NCBI GenBank assembly: GCA_021769295.1
Contig: JAETTD010000001.1
Coordinates: 62,001 to 126,000, forward strand
Direction of reading: 5' to 3'
DNA length: 64,000 nt
DNA from: Bacillota bacterium
Lineage (GTDB): Bacteria > Bacillota > Clostridia > Peptostreptococcales > Anaerovoracaceae
Shown here: positions 768-60,830 of the stretch, one piece after another
Numbering within the stretch: the stretch's first letter is position 1
How the letters are laid out: every line of letters starts with the position of its first letter
Translations under genes and position numbers: made by a program
Notes under the pieces: model-generated
What the model saw: only the letters and a program-made list of their open reading frames with translations
Told to the model about the DNA's origin: nothing
Databases searched by the model: none

Positions 768-972
768 ATCCCTAATTCCTCCGTTAAGAAGATTATACTA
801 TGTTTTTGATTTGTGCGCCACCGAAACCGTATTAAACCGCCTGCTTTTATGCTTTGCGTCACATTCTATAGTGTTTCAATGTTTATTCATATATACATAT
901 AATCCAAAATGTCTGAAAATTGAACATATTAAAGTTTTTGTACTAAGAGATTATCTTAGACTTATCCCGGTA

Positions 973-1201
973 TGAATGCCGTAAATTTTGAAAAAATGCT
1001 CAGATGCGGCATTATGGGGTGCATAATGATGACCAAACTGCCGTATTTTTAGAAAAATTCTTTATATACGGCATTTTTTGGCCTCCAACAGCTAAAAAAA
1101 TGCCGCATTCTTGAAAAAATTTCTCGAATGCGGCATTATCGCTACTCAGTACGCTGTTAAACTGCCGTAAATCATAAAATTTTATTGAATTGCGGCATTT
1201 C
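973..1201. repeat. 62-bp-period palindrome array 1 (4 units, TGCCG..CGGCA arms)
   Basis: TGCC at 977, 1039, 1101, 1163 (62-bp steps); each unit spans 35 nt from TGCC to GGCA. Confidence 0.9.
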
Positions 1202-1244
1202 GGCAATCCGGCCTAAACAATCCGCCTTGCTACACTACACATGA

Positions 1245-8405: not shown

Positions 8406-9689
8406 ATGAAGAAAGGGAAATTGAACTTTAACACGCTTCTTGCGGTTATATCTTTCTCGATTGCAGGCAGTGTAATTTACGAATTGCCGTATATTAAATA
8501 CGTATATTACGATAAATTGCTGCCCGCTTTTGATATGACCAACGCTGAAGCAGGCTTCCTGCTCTCGGCTTATGCTATAGGATGTCTAATCCTGTACATA
8601 CCGGGCGGAATCCTGGCAGATAAGTTTTCTGCCAAAAAAATGTTGGTATTGTCTTTATTCGGCACAGGTATACTTGGCTTTATAATGGCCTTCTCGATGA
8701 ATTACACGACTGCACTTATCGTATTCTTCCTGTTTGCCGTTACCACCAGTTTTGTGTTCTGGACCGCCCTCAACAAAGGTCTGAGGCTATTGGGTGGAAA
8801 AGATAATTCCGGCTCGACTTACGGCTGGTACTATGCCCTTGGTTCGGTTATCAGCTTGGTATGCGGCATCGTCTTCTGGGCTCTTTATTCTTCCAGCGAA
8901 GACAATCACACCGCAATGTTCAGAACCATAATGGCTATGTCTATCGCAGTTATCGTTGCAGGCATATTTGTTCAGATTACCTTCAAGGAAGATAGAACTG
9001 CCATGGGCGAACTTGCTGAGGAAGATAAGTTTAAACTGAGCGATATAGGCAAGGCTATCAGAAACCCTTATCTGTGGTGGGCTTCAATCATAATGTTTTT
9101 GATTTATACCATTTATAGTAACGTAACTTATTTCACACCTTATCTGACATCTCAGGTAGGCATGGACGTATCCGATTCCGCTTTTCTCGGAATCATCAGA
9201 GGATATGTACTTTACTTCCTGTCGCCTCTGGGCGGCTATATTGCCGATAAAATTCTCAAATCCACTTTGAAGCTTTACGGATACGGCTTTATAATCCTCG
9301 GCGTGCTGTTCTTCGGAGCAACTCAGATTCCTGCCGGAGAAGGAAGCGTAGGCATTGCGATAGCAATGTCCCTGCTGGCCTCCGCATTCGCCATGATGCT
9401 CTACGGCGTAATGTGGTCAATCCTCAATGAAATTGACATTCCTGTTTCCTATGCTGCTACTGCAATAGGTCTGGCTTCCATGGTAATTTACCTGCCTGAC
9501 CTGTTCGTTCCTGCAATGATAGGCGGCTGGCTCGACAACTTAGGTGAAGAAGCCGGTTACTTCAGAATGTTCATCTTCTTCGGTCTCTGCTGCGTAGCTG
9601 CTGTAGTCCTTTCGCTGACACTGGCAAAGAAAGTCAAATCAATGAATGCTGCAAAAGCTTCTCAGTCGGACGCACCGGCCGAAAGCTGA
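8406..9689 (+). CDS. MFS transporter
   Basis: MFS signature PGGILADKFSAKKML; 12-TM-like. Confidence 0.85.
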   Translation: MKKGKLNFNTLLAVISFSIAGSVIYELPYIKYVYYDKLLPAFDMTNAEAGFLLSAYAIGCLILYIPGGILADKFSAKKMLVLSLFGTGILGFIMAFSMNYTTALIVFFLFAVTTSFVFWTALNKGLRLLGGKDNSGSTYGWYYALGSVISLVCGIVFWALYSSSEDNHTAMFRTIMAMSIAVIVAGIFVQITFKEDRTAMGELAEEDKFKLSDIGKAIRNPYLWWASIIMFLIYTIYSNVTYFTPYLTSQVGMDVSDSAFLGIIRGYVLYFLSPLGGYIADKILKSTLKLYGYGFIILGVLFFGATQIPAGEGSVGIAIAMSLLASAFAMMLYGVMWSILNEIDIPVSYAATAIGLASMVIYLPDLFVPAMIGGWLDNLGEEAGYFRMFIFFGLCCVAAVVLSLTLAKKVKSMNAAKASQSDAPAES

Positions 9690-9780
9690 TTGTAGGCTGT
9701 TGAAAGCTTGCCGCTTGGAGGCTGATTGGAAGCCGGCTGAAGGCCTTCGCCTTTGGCTCATGGCTTAAATTGTAACCAAA

Positions 9781-9815
9781 GCCCCGTCCTCTTGTGTTGG
9801 AGGACGGGGCTTTTT
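9781..9815 (+). terminator. intrinsic terminator after MFS gene
   Basis: GCCCCGTCCT-cttgtgttgg-AGGACGGGGC-TTTTT. Confidence 0.9.
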
Positions 9816-9872: not shown

Positions 9873-10101
9873 AAACTGCCGCAACCGGAGATTTTTTTGA
9901 AGTTTGCGGCAGTTTTACCGTCATTGAAGCTCCTAAAATGCCGTAACTGAGTGAATTTTTGACATTTACGGCATTTTATCTGTCATTATGCCTTATAAAC
10001 TGCCGTAAATAAAAGAAATTTTGTAAATTCCGGCAATTTGGACGCTCTCACCGCAATAAAAATGCCGCATTTAAGGATTTTTTTGACTTTTGCGGCAGTC
10101 A
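9873..10101. repeat. 62-bp-period palindrome array 2 (4 units, TGCCG..CGGCA arms)
   Basis: TGCC at 9877, 9939, 10001, 10063; each 35 nt to GGCA; between two terminators of convergent genes. Confidence 0.92.
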
Positions 10102-10123
10102 GGCTCCTTGCCCGTTTACAAGG

Positions 10124-10152
10124 AAAACGCCGTGCATGATGCACGGCGTTTT
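10124..10152 (-). terminator. intrinsic terminator of the M14 peptidase gene
   Basis: AAAACGCCGTGC-atgat-GCACGGCGTTTT perfect palindrome just 3' of the minus-strand gene. Confidence 0.8.
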
Positions 10153-10184
10153 CTTTTTTATTAAACCAGCCAATAACCTTACAA

Positions 10185-13100
10185 TTATTCAAATTTTCTG
10201 TTTCTTCTTACAACTACAACTGTGCCTGCTGCTGCTCCGCCAAATACGACAGCCAGCATAATCCACATGAAGATGTTGGAAGTATCACCTGTCTTGTTAA
10301 CGTCTGCAGGAGTTGTTGTTCCCGGTTTTTCAGGATTTTCCGGATCAACTACAGGTGGATTTTCAGGAGCTTCAACGCCTGCGTAAGCAGTATCGCCGAG
10401 AACTCTTGAGAACAGGAAGTTTGCGATGTATTTGAACTCATCCTGTGGGTGTCCTTTGTGGTCTAAGGAGTTAGCAAATGCTACGATATCCTTGCCGTCA
10501 GCTTTGTATTCGAAAGCTACCACGGAAGTGTTATATACGTCGAAAGCAGCCTGGTCATCATCGCTGAAGATACCTACGCATCCAACCATAGGAGTCTTAC
10601 CTGCGTTTTTAACCAGCGGAGTAGCTCCCTCAGGAATAGCTGAGAAGTAAGCAGTACCGTACTGGTAATTCTGGTCGTCTCCGTCCAGAGCATAGTTAGC
10701 ATTGAGAAGGTTAACTGTAGGATATTCTACATTTACCAATGCGTCAGTGCCGTTAGGTGCGCTCTTCTTGGTAACTCCGTCAAGAATTCCGCTCAATCTT
10801 CCGGAACCGCTGCCCCAGATCATCAGAGGAGTTCCTTCGGTAACTGCCTGTTTTGCAGTATTGTCAACACCTGAGAAGCTTGCGCCTACAATGGCATCAG
10901 CCTTGGTTGCCTTGTCTGTCAAAGTGAATCCCATCTGCTTTAATGCATACAGGTCGAAGCAGTAAGCATTTCCGCCAGGAAGTTCAATGTTACCTGCGGT
11001 TGCAGGAGCGCTTGCGCCTATAATATAAGCTTCCGGAGCCTTAGCGATTACGCTGGCAACGATGCCTGCTCCGTATACGCCTTCAGCGCTCAGTATATAC
11101 TTATCTGCAACGGTTAAGAAGTCTTCATATGAGCAGATGAAGTCGCCCATGTGCTCGCCTTCTGTAATCATAGCTACAGTCTTGCCTGCTCTCAGCAAAT
11201 CGTTAACTGCACATGCAGTATCTTCAGAAGCGTTGGAGATGATAACGTCAGCATCTGTAACGCCGGTAAACTGAGTAGCGAAATCTGCCAGATAAGTCAA
11301 TGTTCCGGCATAGTCATAACCGTCCTTGCAAACCTTATCGATTGCTTTGTATGCTTCAGGTTCTGCAACTGTGATTATGTCAAATCCACGAGCATAAGGA
11401 TGCTGTGAGAATGCTTCGGAATACAGTCCCTTCCAAACGGTTACGAATGTTCCAGGTCCGAAGTTTGCATGCAGCAGGGATCTCTTAGCCTGGTACATTG
11501 AAGCGATAACCGTACCTGCCGGATATTCTACTCCGTCATATGTGAATGCCTTGTCGGCAATCTTGTACTTCATACCGTTTCTTGCAATCCATTTAACTGC
11601 TTCTGCAGCGTCCTGAAGGTTCTTCTGATTTTCTTTATCCATAGGGATGATCAGGCATTCAGGATAGAAGTTGCCGTTTTCGCCTTCGCCGTCGTATACA
11701 GGTCTCATGATGTCAGCCTGTGCGCCTTGCTCGTCGTATTGGCTTACATAGTATTTTGCAACCTTATCATTGGAGTTTTCGTTGTTCAGTCCTCTTTTGA
11801 AGAGTTCTGCCTGACTTGTCAACAAGTCAATCTTGTTTTCCTGGATAAATCTTCCCTGACCGAGCAGTCCGTTAGGAATTACCTGTTCTGCAGCGATGTC
11901 ATCGTATGCAGGCATTTCCCATGTGATACCGCAAGTACCGTAGAATACAGGGAACTGTGAACCGAAGTTGGTTGACAGGTCATCCCAAGGTGCTCCCCAC
12001 TGTACGCCTGTACGGGGATTAGGATCAAGTTCGATATAGTCACGGGCAGGGAGTTCATAGCTGTTGAATTTTTCGTTGTTTGCAACAGCTGCAATACCTA
12101 CCGCCTCACCCAGCTTCAGGAATTTTTCACCTATTAAGTCATATTCGATGTTAGGATTGTGCGGTGCGCCGCATGGTTCTATAAGCATACCTTCAACTCT
12201 TCCGTGAATTTCGGTATAAACCATAGGGTTCCACTTAGTCATGAAGGCCATAGCGTTTATGTCTTCATTCATGGTCTGGTTAGCATAGTCTCTGTTAGGG
12301 TCAAAGCCTACGCCTGTAGCTCTGGTCTGCTGCATGTAACCTTCCATATTCATGGTAGGAACGCATACGAAGAATACATCGTCCAACAGCTCGTCGATAG
12401 TAAATTCATCAACGCCGGTATTGTAGTACTTGTCAAAGTCAACTACGGAAGAATATCCGTAAGTTGCGGATCTATCAGAAGTATCTCCGTTTTCGCCTCT
12501 GAGTCTTCCCAGCTCTGTAGCCCATTCGCCGTAAATTTCAGATAAGCCTGTTCCGAAAACGTTCTTCTTTTCGTCTTCCAGTTTAGCTCTGCCGGCATCG
12601 GTGTAGCTTTCGAGAGTTCTCAGTGAAATTTCATCTTCGTTTACCAGATTCTGAATGGTATTCATGATACCGTTTACTGCTGAGTTTTCATTTGTGTGGC
12701 AGTTGCTGACATAGATAGGAACCTTTAAGTTGTCATACTTTCCTGCCTTGATGTCTTTAAGAACCTGTGTAGGGTTTGTTTCGGACAGTTCAGTGTATTC
12801 CAGCCATTCCTGAACAGCCTTCTTGTCGCTTGCAACGATAACATAAGGGGTATCGTACTGGTCTATGGAAGAATGTCCGATAGAGCCAACTTCAACGTAT
12901 CTGTCGCCCTTATAGGATTTCAGAGCTTCGATTTCATCGAACAGCTCATAAGGTGTACGATATGAATCATAAGGAACTACCTTTGCGTGTACGGAACCTG
13001 CAGCCTTGTCATCTACAGTTGCAGAAAGGTTAAAGTATCCGCACTTATCAAGCCATGAACCGCCGTTGGTATGGTTAATGGAGTAAACTTTCTTTACTTC

Positions 13101-13571
13101 AGCGCTTGCAGTTGCATCGCCGGTATAGTAGAATTCGGTGCCCTGTGTCTTAAAAGTAACAACCAGGTCCTTGCCTTCAGCTTTAAGTTCTTCTACTTTA
13201 ATAACTTCTGTTCCTTCTTTGTCCTTCCATTCGGAGATTGCTCCGCCCTTGTTAGGGAAAGGATATAATGCAGGATCAAGATAATGTCTGTTCTCATCTC
13301 TTGTCAGGGAGAAAGAAATCTTGTTGTCTGCTACAGCCTGCTGGAGGTCTGCATCAGCAAGATTCGTCGGAATGGTTACCTTATGGGTAGCCTCTTCTGT
13401 CAACGAATACTGGAAGTCGATATCGTCATATGCAGGATATTTGCCGGCTAATGAGATACCGGGTGTCGTTGTGTCCATGGTCAGCTCTTCTACCGAAGCA
13501 AAAGCTGCCATCGGCATTATCAGCGAAAGGATCAATGCCGTCACAACCAGTTTAACTAATCTTTTTTTCAT
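10185..13571 (-). CDS. secreted, putatively cell-wall anchored M14-family zinc carboxypeptidase
   Basis: Signal peptide MKKRLVKLVVTALILSLIMPMAAFA; EIHGRVEGMLIEPCG; C-terminal NKTGDTS + TM + RRNRKFE tail. Confidence 0.75.
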   Translation of the reverse strand: MKKRLVKLVVTALILSLIMPMAAFASVEELTMDTTTPGISLAGKYPAYDDIDFQYSLTEEATHKVTIPTNLADADLQQAVADNKISFSLTRDENRHYLDPALYPFPNKGGAISEWKDKEGTEVIKVEELKAEGKDLVVTFKTQGTEFYYTGDATASAEVKKVYSINHTNGGSWLDKCGYFNLSATVDDKAAGSVHAKVVPYDSYRTPYELFDEIEALKSYKGDRYVEVGSIGHSSIDQYDTPYVIVASDKKAVQEWLEYTELSETNPTQVLKDIKAGKYDNLKVPIYVSNCHTNENSAVNGIMNTIQNLVNEDEISLRTLESYTDAGRAKLEDEKKNVFGTGLSEIYGEWATELGRLRGENGDTSDRSATYGYSSVVDFDKYYNTGVDEFTIDELLDDVFFVCVPTMNMEGYMQQTRATGVGFDPNRDYANQTMNEDINAMAFMTKWNPMVYTEIHGRVEGMLIEPCGAPHNPNIEYDLIGEKFLKLGEAVGIAAVANNEKFNSYELPARDYIELDPNPRTGVQWGAPWDDLSTNFGSQFPVFYGTCGITWEMPAYDDIAAEQVIPNGLLGQGRFIQENKIDLLTSQAELFKRGLNNENSNDKVAKYYVSQYDEQGAQADIMRPVYDGEGENGNFYPECLIIPMDKENQKNLQDAAEAVKWIARNGMKYKIADKAFTYDGVEYPAGTVIASMYQAKRSLLHANFGPGTFVTVWKGLYSEAFSQHPYARGFDIITVAEPEAYKAIDKVCKDGYDYAGTLTYLADFATQFTGVTDADVIISNASEDTACAVNDLLRAGKTVAMITEGEHMGDFICSYEDFLTVADKYILSAEGVYGAGIVASVIAKAPEAYIIGASAPATAGNIELPGGNAYCFDLYALKQMGFTLTDKATKADAIVGASFSGVDNTAKQAVTEGTPLMIWGSGSGRLSGILDGVTKKSAPNGTDALVNVEYPTVNLLNANYALDGDDQNYQYGTAYFSAIPEGATPLVKNAGKTPMVGCVGIFSDDDQAAFDVYNTSVVAFEYKADGKDIVAFANSLDHKGHPQDEFKYIANFLFSRVLGDTAYAGVEAPENPPVVDPENPEKPGTTTPADVNKTGDTSNIFMWIMLAVVFGGAAAGTVVVVRRNRKFE

Positions 13572-16282: not shown

Positions 16283-16511
16283 GGACTGCCGTAAAATCTG
16301 AATATTCTTTTAAATGCGGCATTTCTGCCGGTCAACAGACGGCCGGATTGCCGCAAATTTTTAAAATTCTTCCATTTACGGCATTTTTACCGCCTAATAG
16401 CCATAAAAACTGCCGCAAACCTCATAGAATTCATAAAATGCGGCAGTATTGACCCTTTGAAAGCCTTCAAACTGCCGCAAATGGCATAAAATTTATAAAA
16501 TACGGCAGTCT
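16283..16511. repeat. 62-bp-period palindrome array 3 (4 units, TGCCG..CGGCA arms)
   Basis: TGCC at 16287, 16349, 16411, 16473; each 35 nt to GGCA; lies 25 bp past the dnaJ stop. Confidence 0.92.
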
Positions 16512-29195: not shown

Positions 29196-29385
29196 GCTGC
29201 ACGTTTTTGTGATTTTGTGCAATAATGTTAGCAAAAATGCAAAACGTCGCAGCAGAGCTACAACGTTTCTGTAGTTTCACGCAATTATGTTAAGGTTTTC
29301 TGAAATCGTGTTGCCGGAGCTACAACATTCCTGCAATTTCATGCAATTATGTTATGGATTTTGCAGATTGTGGTTATCCGGTCGA
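29196..29385. repeat. palindrome array, AACAT..ATGTT family, left copy (3 units)
   Basis: ATGTTA at 29225, 29287, 29349 (62-bp steps); gctac starts 29196/29257/29319. Confidence 0.88.
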
Positions 29386-29845
29386 AGTCAGCTTCTATTA
29401 GAGAACACAACAGATAATCCCTTTACAAATAACTGAATATAGTTCTTTGAAGCACCTGCTACTGACCGAGAGAAAAATCGGTTAAACGGCGGGTGCTTTT
29501 ACTTTTTCAAAAAATCAGAATACGAGGTCTAAATTACACTTCCCTTACGGGCTATTGGGTGAGAGGTCAAATCCTTTCGCCCTTTTTTGTTGCGCTTCTT
29601 GAAAATTGAATAGCAGCCGCCAGAGGGATACCTGCCGCAGCGGACAGCAGAGCGATGATATGAGCCTGCCCGCTGCTTAATCCGTGCATAGCACCGGCAG
29701 AGAAAACGCCGCTTAAAGGAAGCGTGGAACTGTATGGGAGGGCTGTGCTTACATATCCCTGATTCACTTGACAGGGATAAATCTATTTTCAAGGAGGAAA
29801 CGCCTATGTGCAACAACAGGAAACCAAAGCGGAAGGAGGGATTGT

Positions 29846-39866: not shown

Positions 39867-39971
39867 CCGCTAATGAATATTGCCCTTGTATCTTCGGGTA
39901 TGAGGGCGTTTTTCTTATATGTTCTCTAATGGAATTTCACAGAGGGCAAATCACCTGAGGAGAGGTTGTGC

Positions 39972-40093
39972 GGTATACATATTTTAGGTTTTTGTATACT
40001 TTGTATACGGTTTTGGCTCATATGTATACCCGAGGTATACCTTTTCCGAATTTTCGTATACTTTGTATACCGGTTTGCCGGTTTTTGTATACC
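39972..40093. repeat. 62-bp-period GTATAC palindrome array (2 units)
   Basis: GTATAC at 39973, 39994, 40003, 40024 and again at 40035, 40056, 40065, 40087 (shifts 62, 62, 62, 63). Confidence 0.88.
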
Positions 40094-40107: not shown

Positions 40108-40298
40108 AGCAACACGTTTTTATGGTTTCACGCAATAACGTTAAGGTTTTCCGAAATCGTGTTGCCGGAGCTACAACATTCCTGCAATTTCACGCAATTA
40201 TGTTAAGGTTTTCCGAAACGGTGGTGCCGACGCTACAATGCTTCTGTGAATTCATGCAATTATGTTATGGATTTTGCAGATTGTGGTTATCCGGTCGA
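40108..40298. repeat. palindrome array, AACAT..ATGTT family, right copy (3 units)
   Basis: ACGTTA/ATGTTA at 40138, 40200, 40262 (62-bp steps); last 48 bp identical to left copy. Confidence 0.88.
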
Positions 40299-40568
40299 GG
40301 GTCGAGCAACTCGGGGTCAAACCGGCCGAGGTCAACTTCCAAGCCAATCGCCGATCGAGCCAGCCGAGCCGGCCCTGCGGCCGGCCCGGTGCAGCGGCTC
40401 GCCAGGGCATACGCAGCCCATAAATCAAAAAGAGCGCCCTGAAGCGCTCATTTGCAGCTTCAAGGCACTCTTATATAAACTTTTAAATAACAGCCGAGGC
40501 GCCGATATTATTATTTATAAAACAACTGTCTTTTCTGTAACCTCGCCAAAATACCCTCTTTTTAAAGG

Positions 40569-49696: not shown

Positions 49697-49925
49697 CTGC
49701 TGCCGCAAATCTTTGATTTTGTTTTAAATGCGGCATTTTGCGAGCTATTCTGAGGGTCGGACTGCCGCAAATTCCGAAATTTATTTTGATTGCGGCATTT
49801 TTAGGGTGTCCGGACGGGCAAAACTGCCGTAAACACAAAAAAATTCTTTAAATGCGGCATTTTCGCCGGTCGATAAAGGGCAAAACTGCTGTAAATGCCC
49901 CAATTTAATATGATTGCGGCATTCT
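49697..49925. repeat. 62-bp-period palindrome array 4 (4 units, TGCCG..CGGCA arms)
   Basis: TGCC at 49701, 49763, 49825 and TGCT at 49887; each 35 nt to GGCA. Confidence 0.92.
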
Positions 49926-49999: not shown

Positions 50000-50818
50000 T
50001 CATACTTGCTCATTCTCAAACACCTCCAAATCGGCAGCAGCCAATATGTTTTCATCGCAGCTTTCAAGAACATCATCGCTCCTTGCCATTACATAAAAGA
50101 AAATGCTGCATTCTGCTTCTTCAAAATACCTGGCGTAGATTCTTCCCCTCATTTGCACAGGCGCAAAATTTTCCTCTGTATCGTAATTAGGCGAACCGTA
50201 TTGAATATAGTTTCTCAGTTTTTCACATCTCTCATGAAGAACCCCGTTTACAGTCATCTCCGCATCAAGGCAGACCCAGTCGTCATAACCTGCAAGGCTG
50301 ACTCCCTTGGTAACGCCGTCAACCTCCCAAGAAAACACCTCATCCTTCTTCGGCATTCCCAAATCGCCTAACACCAATCTGGTAAAATCGTACCTCGGAA
50401 CCCGGGAAATCTTATCCAAATCAACATTTCCCTTTTCATCTATGCCGTATCTTTCGTTCACCGCATATGCGCCGTAAAAAGAATTGTAATATTCGCAAGT
50501 ATCATCGTATATCCGGCTGCATCCTCTCTTTACATCAAATTCCGGGAAATTATATAAAATGGTCAGGCGTATGTCCTTGTCTCCCGTAAATGCCCTGAAT
50601 CCTTCGTCTGCATTAAATGTCATAACAAACGGGTACCAGCCCTCATCCGTTCCCAGCTCGATTCCTATTCCCTTTTCCGCCAAAAGGCTTTCTCTTTCAT
50701 TCGTGAAGCTGTATATCTTCATCACTGCCAGGCTCTTGGCATATGCGGCAAGCGGCGATGTCAGAAACAGCGCAAGAATCAATGTAAGAAGCCCGATTGC
50801 AATCCACTTCTTTTTCAT
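50000..50818 (-). CDS. exported protein of unknown function
   Basis: Signal peptide/TM MKKKWIAIGLLTLILALFLTSPLAAYA; no recognised domain. Confidence 0.6.
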   Translation of the reverse strand: MKKKWIAIGLLTLILALFLTSPLAAYAKSLAVMKIYSFTNERESLLAEKGIGIELGTDEGWYPFVMTFNADEGFRAFTGDKDIRLTILYNFPEFDVKRGCSRIYDDTCEYYNSFYGAYAVNERYGIDEKGNVDLDKISRVPRYDFTRLVLGDLGMPKKDEVFSWEVDGVTKGVSLAGYDDWVCLDAEMTVNGVLHERCEKLRNYIQYGSPNYDTEENFAPVQMRGRIYARYFEEAECSIFFYVMARSDDVLESCDENILAAADLEVFENEQV

Positions 50819-60201: not shown

Positions 60202-60334
60202 GCTTATCGTTTTTTTAATATGGCTTCACCTCTTTTTACATTTTCTGTAAATTTTAAAGGATTTGCTTCGGCTTGTCAAGGGTTAAAAAGAAATTATGTG
60301 GTTCCGGATTTTTCTCGTTAAGGCTCCGGCTATG

Positions 60335-60830
60335 GCGTTGGCTTTTTGCAATGCGGCGGCTCAAAAAGCCAACGTTTATTCCAATATATGTAAATTTTCG
60401 TGGTCTTTTGCCGGTTTCGTTGGCTTTTTGAGCTCATTGCCTGATTTTGGCCTACAAAAAACCTAAAAACTGTAGGCCAATTTTGTTCCTCATCGAAAAA
60501 AAGCCAACGCCTGCACATTTCGGCGCAGGGTTGGCAGGTATTATGTAAACCTATGTTGGCTGATTTCTATTTTTTTTAAGATTGTGGCAACATTATTTAC
60601 AATAATTGTAAATTTCTCACCGGGCATTCTTCCACTTTTTCCCATATGTTGTCGCAGGCAGCCGAAATCCGGAAACCTGCCAACAGTTTTTGGGAAAAAC
60701 TGTTGGCAGGTTCTGCTTATTTTAAAAAAGTGACAACATCGACATTTTTCGACACGGAAAATCCATGCGATTCACCGGATTTTGTTGGCAACTTCTGCCT
60801 TATTCGAAATTCTGCCAACATTTGATGCGG
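60335..60830. repeat. cluster of GTTGGC/GCCAAC-armed inverted repeats in ~0.7 kb intergenic region
   Basis: GTTGGCTTTTTG..CAAAAAGCCAAC (60337-60373), TTGGCCTACA..TGTAGGCCAA (60447-60480), ATTTACAATaATTGTAAAT, TGTTGGCA..TGCCAACA (60783-60821). Confidence 0.85.
60675..60711. other. near-perfect 37-nt palindrome (17-bp stem, ggg loop)
   Basis: ACCTGCCAACAGTTTTT-ggg-AAAAACTGTTGGCAGGT. Confidence 0.95.

Follow-up and report, generated by a model that had tools for sequence, protein, structure and literature searches.

The palindromic repeat at 9873-10101 of the window (the whole stretch of DNA analysed, 64,000 nucleotides long) belongs to a family of intergenic arrays, called type I, which are usually made of four units set exactly 62 bp apart. 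The arrays share one architecture, with fixed copy number and spacing, a defined polarity, a distinct end signature and half-sites maintained by selection; they are found at gene 3' ends and are absent from the relatives searched. Each array is best explained as an element acting at the DNA level and not as an RNA. That they may work as phased docking sites for a dimeric DNA-binding protein, on curved DNA and in the manner of enterobacterial BIMEs, is given an even chance. Palindromic repeats were recognised at gene ends decades ago, and their role is still debated; here, spacing, unit number, polarity, end signature and half-site selection are all legible from the sequence alone.

The four-unit arrays and their position

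The arrays hosted by the window, and the hairpins on the two sides of array 2, are the following.

969-1206, minus strand: type I array 1, four units, TGCCG at 977, 1039, 1101 and 1163
9778-9813, plus strand: terminator-like intrinsic hairpin of the MFS gene, an inverted repeat upstream of array 2
9873-10101, plus strand: type I array 2 (the feature studied), four 62-bp units, TGCCG at 9877, 9939, 10001 and 10063
10120-10156, no strand assigned: hairpin on the other side of array 2, 18-bp arms, 94% complementary, with A/T runs
16283-16511, minus strand: type I array 3, four units, TGCCG at 16287, 16349, 16411 and 16473, adjoining the dnaJ 3' end
29211-29396, minus strand: type II array, three 62-bp units, with a dyad motif different from type I (GTGAATTCAC-like/GCTACAAC)
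39969-40092, minus strand: type III array, two 62-bp units of GTATACnnnGTATAC
40124-40309, minus strand: type II array, three units
49697-49925, minus strand: type I array 4, four units, TGCCG at 49701, 49763, 49825 and 49887

Array 2 is flanked by convergent genes, encoding an MFS transporter (8406-9689, plus strand) and the product of a gene at 10185-13571 (minus strand). The hairpin at 10120-10156 is terminator-like in either direction. Array 4, in which the half-site of unit 4 is mutated to TGCTG, is similarly placed between convergent genes, the PEPCK gene and a gene at 50000-50818. The genes flanking the window arrays are ordinary (MFS transporter, dnaJ, PEPCK, beta-keto acid cleavage enzyme, peptidase M20).

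The census of type I arrays was made with a 47-bp weight matrix over 745 kb of the own genome (contigs C31, C5, C48 and C20), plus loci found by search. The 745 kb sampled host 36 arrays, which extrapolates to about 110 genome-wide. Four units are found in 31 of the 36, three units in 3, and two and five units in one array each. Over all the loci examined, 189 of 198 intervals between units measure exactly 62 bp, and the remainder 61-64 bp. A direct pattern search of the whole genome retrieved 221 adjacent unit pairs. In the array at C48:142-362 units 1 and 3 are identical, spacer included, as the result of a recent 124-bp duplication which turned two units into four.

Type I units fit the short consensus TGCCGYAA..AAAWWTTT..TTRCGGCA. 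In its extended form this reads AAAM TGCCG Y AA WT, a variable tract, AAAWWTTT, a second variable tract, and WTT R CGGCA K TTT. Half-site columns are almost invariant, and the consensus is symmetric at the variable sites, where Y on one side corresponds to R on the other. Units are directional and follow each other head-to-tail, all four in the same direction in most arrays; one unit of the dispersed subfamily described below is nearly symmetric, and is an exception to the shared direction. The outer end of unit 4 is distinct, and corresponds to CGGCAGTC. At position 37, C is found at a frequency of 0.76, vs 0.06-0.12 in units 1-2. The same end mark is present even in arrays lacking close spacer homology.

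Arrays are unevenly distributed among gene gaps. According to gene positions obtained with a home-made gene caller, an array is present in 17 of the 57 gaps between convergent genes, in 17 of the 545 tandem ones and in none of the 57 divergent ones (p 3e-10 for convergent vs tandem, p 4e-6 for convergent vs divergent). The median distance to the nearest stop codon is 70 bp, and some arrays lie within 10-25 bp of a stop. No clear preference in array orientation relative to the nearest gene was found (19 same, 12 opposite). Several type I arrays (window 977 and 16287; C31 128350 and 200115) lie at points where synteny with the relatives G003 and G004 breaks. Arrays located at contig ends (L017; C5:61-130 in the own genome) adjoin a common sequence, AATGTGGACCCCATTT, which is perhaps an insertion sequence targeting the arrays, as IS elements target REPs.

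Relation to known repeats, dispersal and selection

REP/BIME elements are high-copy extragenic palindromes, tagged by GTAG or CGTC, which have a species-specific consensus and are found near gene 3' ends (PMC3733652, PMC2817692). Type I arrays are also high-copy, intergenic, palindromic, apparently species-specific and clustered at regular spacing, and both kinds of repeats lie near gene 3' ends, between genes that converge or run in the same direction. In contrast with REPs, the foot of the type I stem is AAAM/KTTT in a 73-unit profile, with neither a GTAG nor a CGTC tag as defined in PMC3733652. Type I units are organized head-to-tail, whereas REP units form head-head or tail-tail dimers. 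Additional differences are the usual presence of exactly four units at exactly 62 bp, the large 19-nt centre with a conserved A/T block of its own, and the occurrence of two unrelated motif families on the same lattice. RAYT genes (PF01797) were not found in the own genome, which is 97% complete, while control genomes gave matches. Lacking the tag, the RAYT and the inverted arrangement, the arrays are not filed as REP/BIME elements.

Type I arrays share with CRISPRs the regular organization, the partly palindromic repeats, the variable spacers and a period of ~60-70 bp. Type I repeats are however non-identical, usually four in number and dispersed at roughly a hundred places, and the divergence among repeats, together with the fixed number of units, led to the rejection of a CRISPR-like reading. 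At C20:64200-66800 the own genome has a CRISPR-like array, with a period of ~67 bp and the repeat GTCGCGCCCCGCGAGGGGCGCGTGAGTAGAAAT.

The exact type I pattern is absent from 40 relatives, five of the same genus among them, and types II and III were not found in the 24 relatives searched. No array occurs in the orthologous gaps of one relative (G003), and about 640 kb from relatives contain repeats at other periods but no 62-bp periodic array. The array system thus looks species-specific, as judged from the relatives searched. Eight exact-pattern matches were found among the 84,980 species genomes of GTDB, a collection which may omit records of the window's own species. Having neither the A/T pattern nor a four-unit array, they look like chance or unrelated repeats, and were rejected as true arrays. 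A phage origin was also rejected, as none of the three types has an exact-pattern match in IMG/VR. No bacterial 62-bp repeat of this kind was found described in the literature searched.

Among 55 complete four-unit arrays, one dispersed subfamily accounts for 38, and its flanks are conserved to a variable extent; the other 17 can be aligned over the array itself only. In the latter, spacer identity is 0.38, vs 0.26 for shuffled spacers, and unit identity is equal in and out of register. The 38-copy subfamily has been dispersed whole, and its copy number is therefore partly due to descent. Divergence between nearest subfamily copies amounts to 0.006 in half-sites, 0.019 in the flanking AAA/TTT and 0.163 in spacers. 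Half-sites of recent copies hence diverge 27 times less than spacers, which argues that the DNA motif is under selection in settled copies, or that survival of the copies is very biased.

The docking-site interpretation has as its main rival a family of mobile elements, in which use itself keeps the copies intact. The arrays would be non-autonomous, MITE- or REPIN-like elements, of which only copies with intact transposase sites move, and gaps at gene 3' ends would simply tolerate their insertion. Spacers and flanks common to the 38-copy subfamily, array-free orthologous gaps in G003 and the coincidence of several arrays with synteny breakpoints all fit such a history. Yet no Y1/RAYT transposase was found in the own genome, and homology edges are ragged (about -10 to -120 and +220 to +335), with no sharp insertion boundary. 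When examined by MITE criteria, the ragged ends are accompanied by array-free orthologous gaps too diverged to reveal target-site duplication. Also against mobility are the half-sites, kept in settled copies 27-fold better than spacers, the seventeen arrays that have no close homology outside the motifs and still feature four units at 62 bp, and a lattice common to two further motif families. A mobile family is thus regarded as a rather unlikely origin.

Pairing of the palindrome arms

The unit sequences quoted in the first-pass annotation were all recovered where it had placed them, and the palindromes and their regular spacing are well beyond chance. The annotation had also proposed that base changes in the arms are compensatory, pairing being upheld across units as in a structured RNA or a dyad protein site. 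Two arm positions do differ between units 1 and 2 of array 2, and pairing is retained. Unit 3 (10001) is however mismatched at both positions (C.A and T.C), and the outer position of unit 4 (10063) is A.G. Numbered from the T of TGCCG, the two changed positions correspond to -1/35 (A or C vs K) and 5/29 (Y vs R). At the inner pair, 5/29, the 48 non-redundant units feature TA 16, CG 8, TG 8 and CA 7 times; Watson-Crick pairs make 0.50 of the total vs 0.45 expected (p=0.24), and no arm pair is significant in this set.

A larger set of 54 non-redundant genomic units gave the same picture. Over 14 pairs, 78.6% of the cells are paired, vs 80.4% after shuffling, and the covariation score (0.126 vs 0.129 shuffled) was matched or exceeded in 293 of 500 shuffles. 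Pairing is thus no better than in shuffled units, and the claim falls by the comparison that had been proposed along with it. Departures of the G.T and A.C kinds, counted in oriented units to monitor a strand bias in wobble, are balanced (34 vs 46, p=0.22). Double changes in the dispersed subfamily are 10 vs 6.3 expected, and 6 of the 10 are paired, at most a trace of covariation. As three separate tests were made and none was positive, covariation was discarded as an argument for RNA. The supposedly compensatory changes are fortuitous: the DNA motif is symmetric, and of its two changed positions one takes C or T and the other A or G, freely and independently of each other. The symmetry of the units is that of a degenerate dyad DNA motif. 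Of the two alternatives initially offered, the dyad DNA site is supported by near-invariant half-sites, independent variation within a symmetric consensus, exact 62-bp helical phasing and strong half-site selection. The structured RNA is supported neither by covariation nor by wobble bias, nor by the mixed orientation of arrays relative to the nearest gene, and an Rfam scan of the window gave zero matches at the gathering threshold.

Palindromes could nonetheless be transcribed into RNA hairpins, serving as bidirectional terminators or as mRNA 3'-end stabilisers of the flanking genes. A recognisable terminator precedes the array at ~30% of the facing 3' ends, a figure similar to background, and some arrays may therefore be transcribed. 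The location just past stop codons (median about 70 bp), the lack of room for another terminator where arrays are 10-25 bp from the stop, the T-rich 3' flank, and units which fold better on either strand than their shuffles do (z about -3.5), are all in line with this role. On the other hand covariation is missing, several stem positions are mismatched in about half of the units, the loop is of ~19 nt and the T-run is weak. Four copies at exactly 62 bp are not required by an RNA, and the window array is already flanked by terminator-like hairpins. The RNA alternative is weak, and is considered improbable.

A common 62-bp lattice and predicted curvature

Type II arrays (GTGAATTCAC / GCTACAAC) have mostly three units, with a maximum of nine, and type III arrays (GTATACAAAGTATAC) have two units in 17 of 21 cases. 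Nearly all arrays of both types have a 62-bp period, and their motifs have no sequence relation to type I. Two unrelated motif families at the type I spacing point to a physical constraint on a protein-DNA complex. Where arrays of different type adjoin, 7 of 13 neighbour pairs have their dyad centres at a distance of 62-64.5 bp. The dyad centre of the type II array at 40124-40309 is 63.5 bp from that of the neighbouring type III array, and the lattice thus runs on across types. At C20:107089-107270 of the own genome one type I unit is followed by two type III units, and the dyad centres succeed each other at exactly 62 bp. Between two type II arrays, at 29.5-40.1 kb of the window, lies an island of mobile appearance (AAA, Mob_Pre relaxase, ParB, serine recombinase), which is missing from the syntenic stretches of G003 and G004.

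A/T tracts are found around the dyad centre every ~10 bp. Curvature was predicted by wedge-type dinucleotide models, and is taken as supporting, not decisive. The predicted contour/end ratio is 2.06, vs 1.16 in dinucleotide shuffles (mean z 8.9, all arrays positive), and in a spacing series varied in silico from 54 to 70 bp predicted curvature peaks at 62-63 bp. Of the 60 places with the strongest curvature in the 745 kb, about half are arrays; several unrelated intergenic regions are equally curved. Predicted curvature is also higher in types II and III than in other intergenic DNA. According to these models, the arrays would lie on intrinsically curved DNA.

A copying mechanism always duplicating 62 bp could have generated a lattice devoid of function, as suggested by the period common to three motif families and by the recent exact 124-bp duplication in array C48:142, but is highly improbable in view of the post-copying selection on half-sites, of unit numbers which are characteristic of each family (4, mostly 3, mostly 2) and not freely variable, and of a predicted curvature peaking at exactly the 62-bp period.

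In the preferred docking-site interpretation, each array would provide a tetrad of dyad-symmetric sites for a putative, probably species-specific dimeric DNA-binding protein. As 62 bp correspond to six helical turns, all four dimers would be located on one face of the DNA, and would compact some 248 bp of it into a nucleoprotein structure. The array, which lies just past stop codons and chiefly at convergent genes, would most likely work as a topological or transcription-boundary site, in the manner of BIMEs. Both the binding protein and the boundary or topological role of the array are what we infer. A broader proposal, advanced only tentatively, is that of a species-specific chromosome-architecture system. 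Three unrelated dyad motifs, each typified by its own number of units (four, mostly three, mostly two), would be set on one curved lattice of 62 bp, or six turns, and would mark the places, at gene ends and convergent junctions, where a dedicated nucleoprotein complex docks or wraps the DNA. Whether convergent genes carry architectural sites is directly testable by simple binding and spacing mutants.

An expansion of HU was rejected, as the genome has one HU gene only, like most relatives. Archaeal histones are positioned at 30 bp per dimer (PMC10516927). The type I lattice is comparable, being near 31/62 bp with A/T content phased at ~10 bp, but differs in that recognition involves specific palindromes. 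No histone-fold protein above cut-off was found in the own genome, and the one sub-threshold match is due to chance. A further intergenic repeat, CGTTGGCTTTTTG / CAAAAAGCCAACG, is found at 60330-60520 of the window and at 209.5 and 243.3 kb of contig C48, and sits in what the wedge model predicts to be the most curved stretch of the four sampled contigs.
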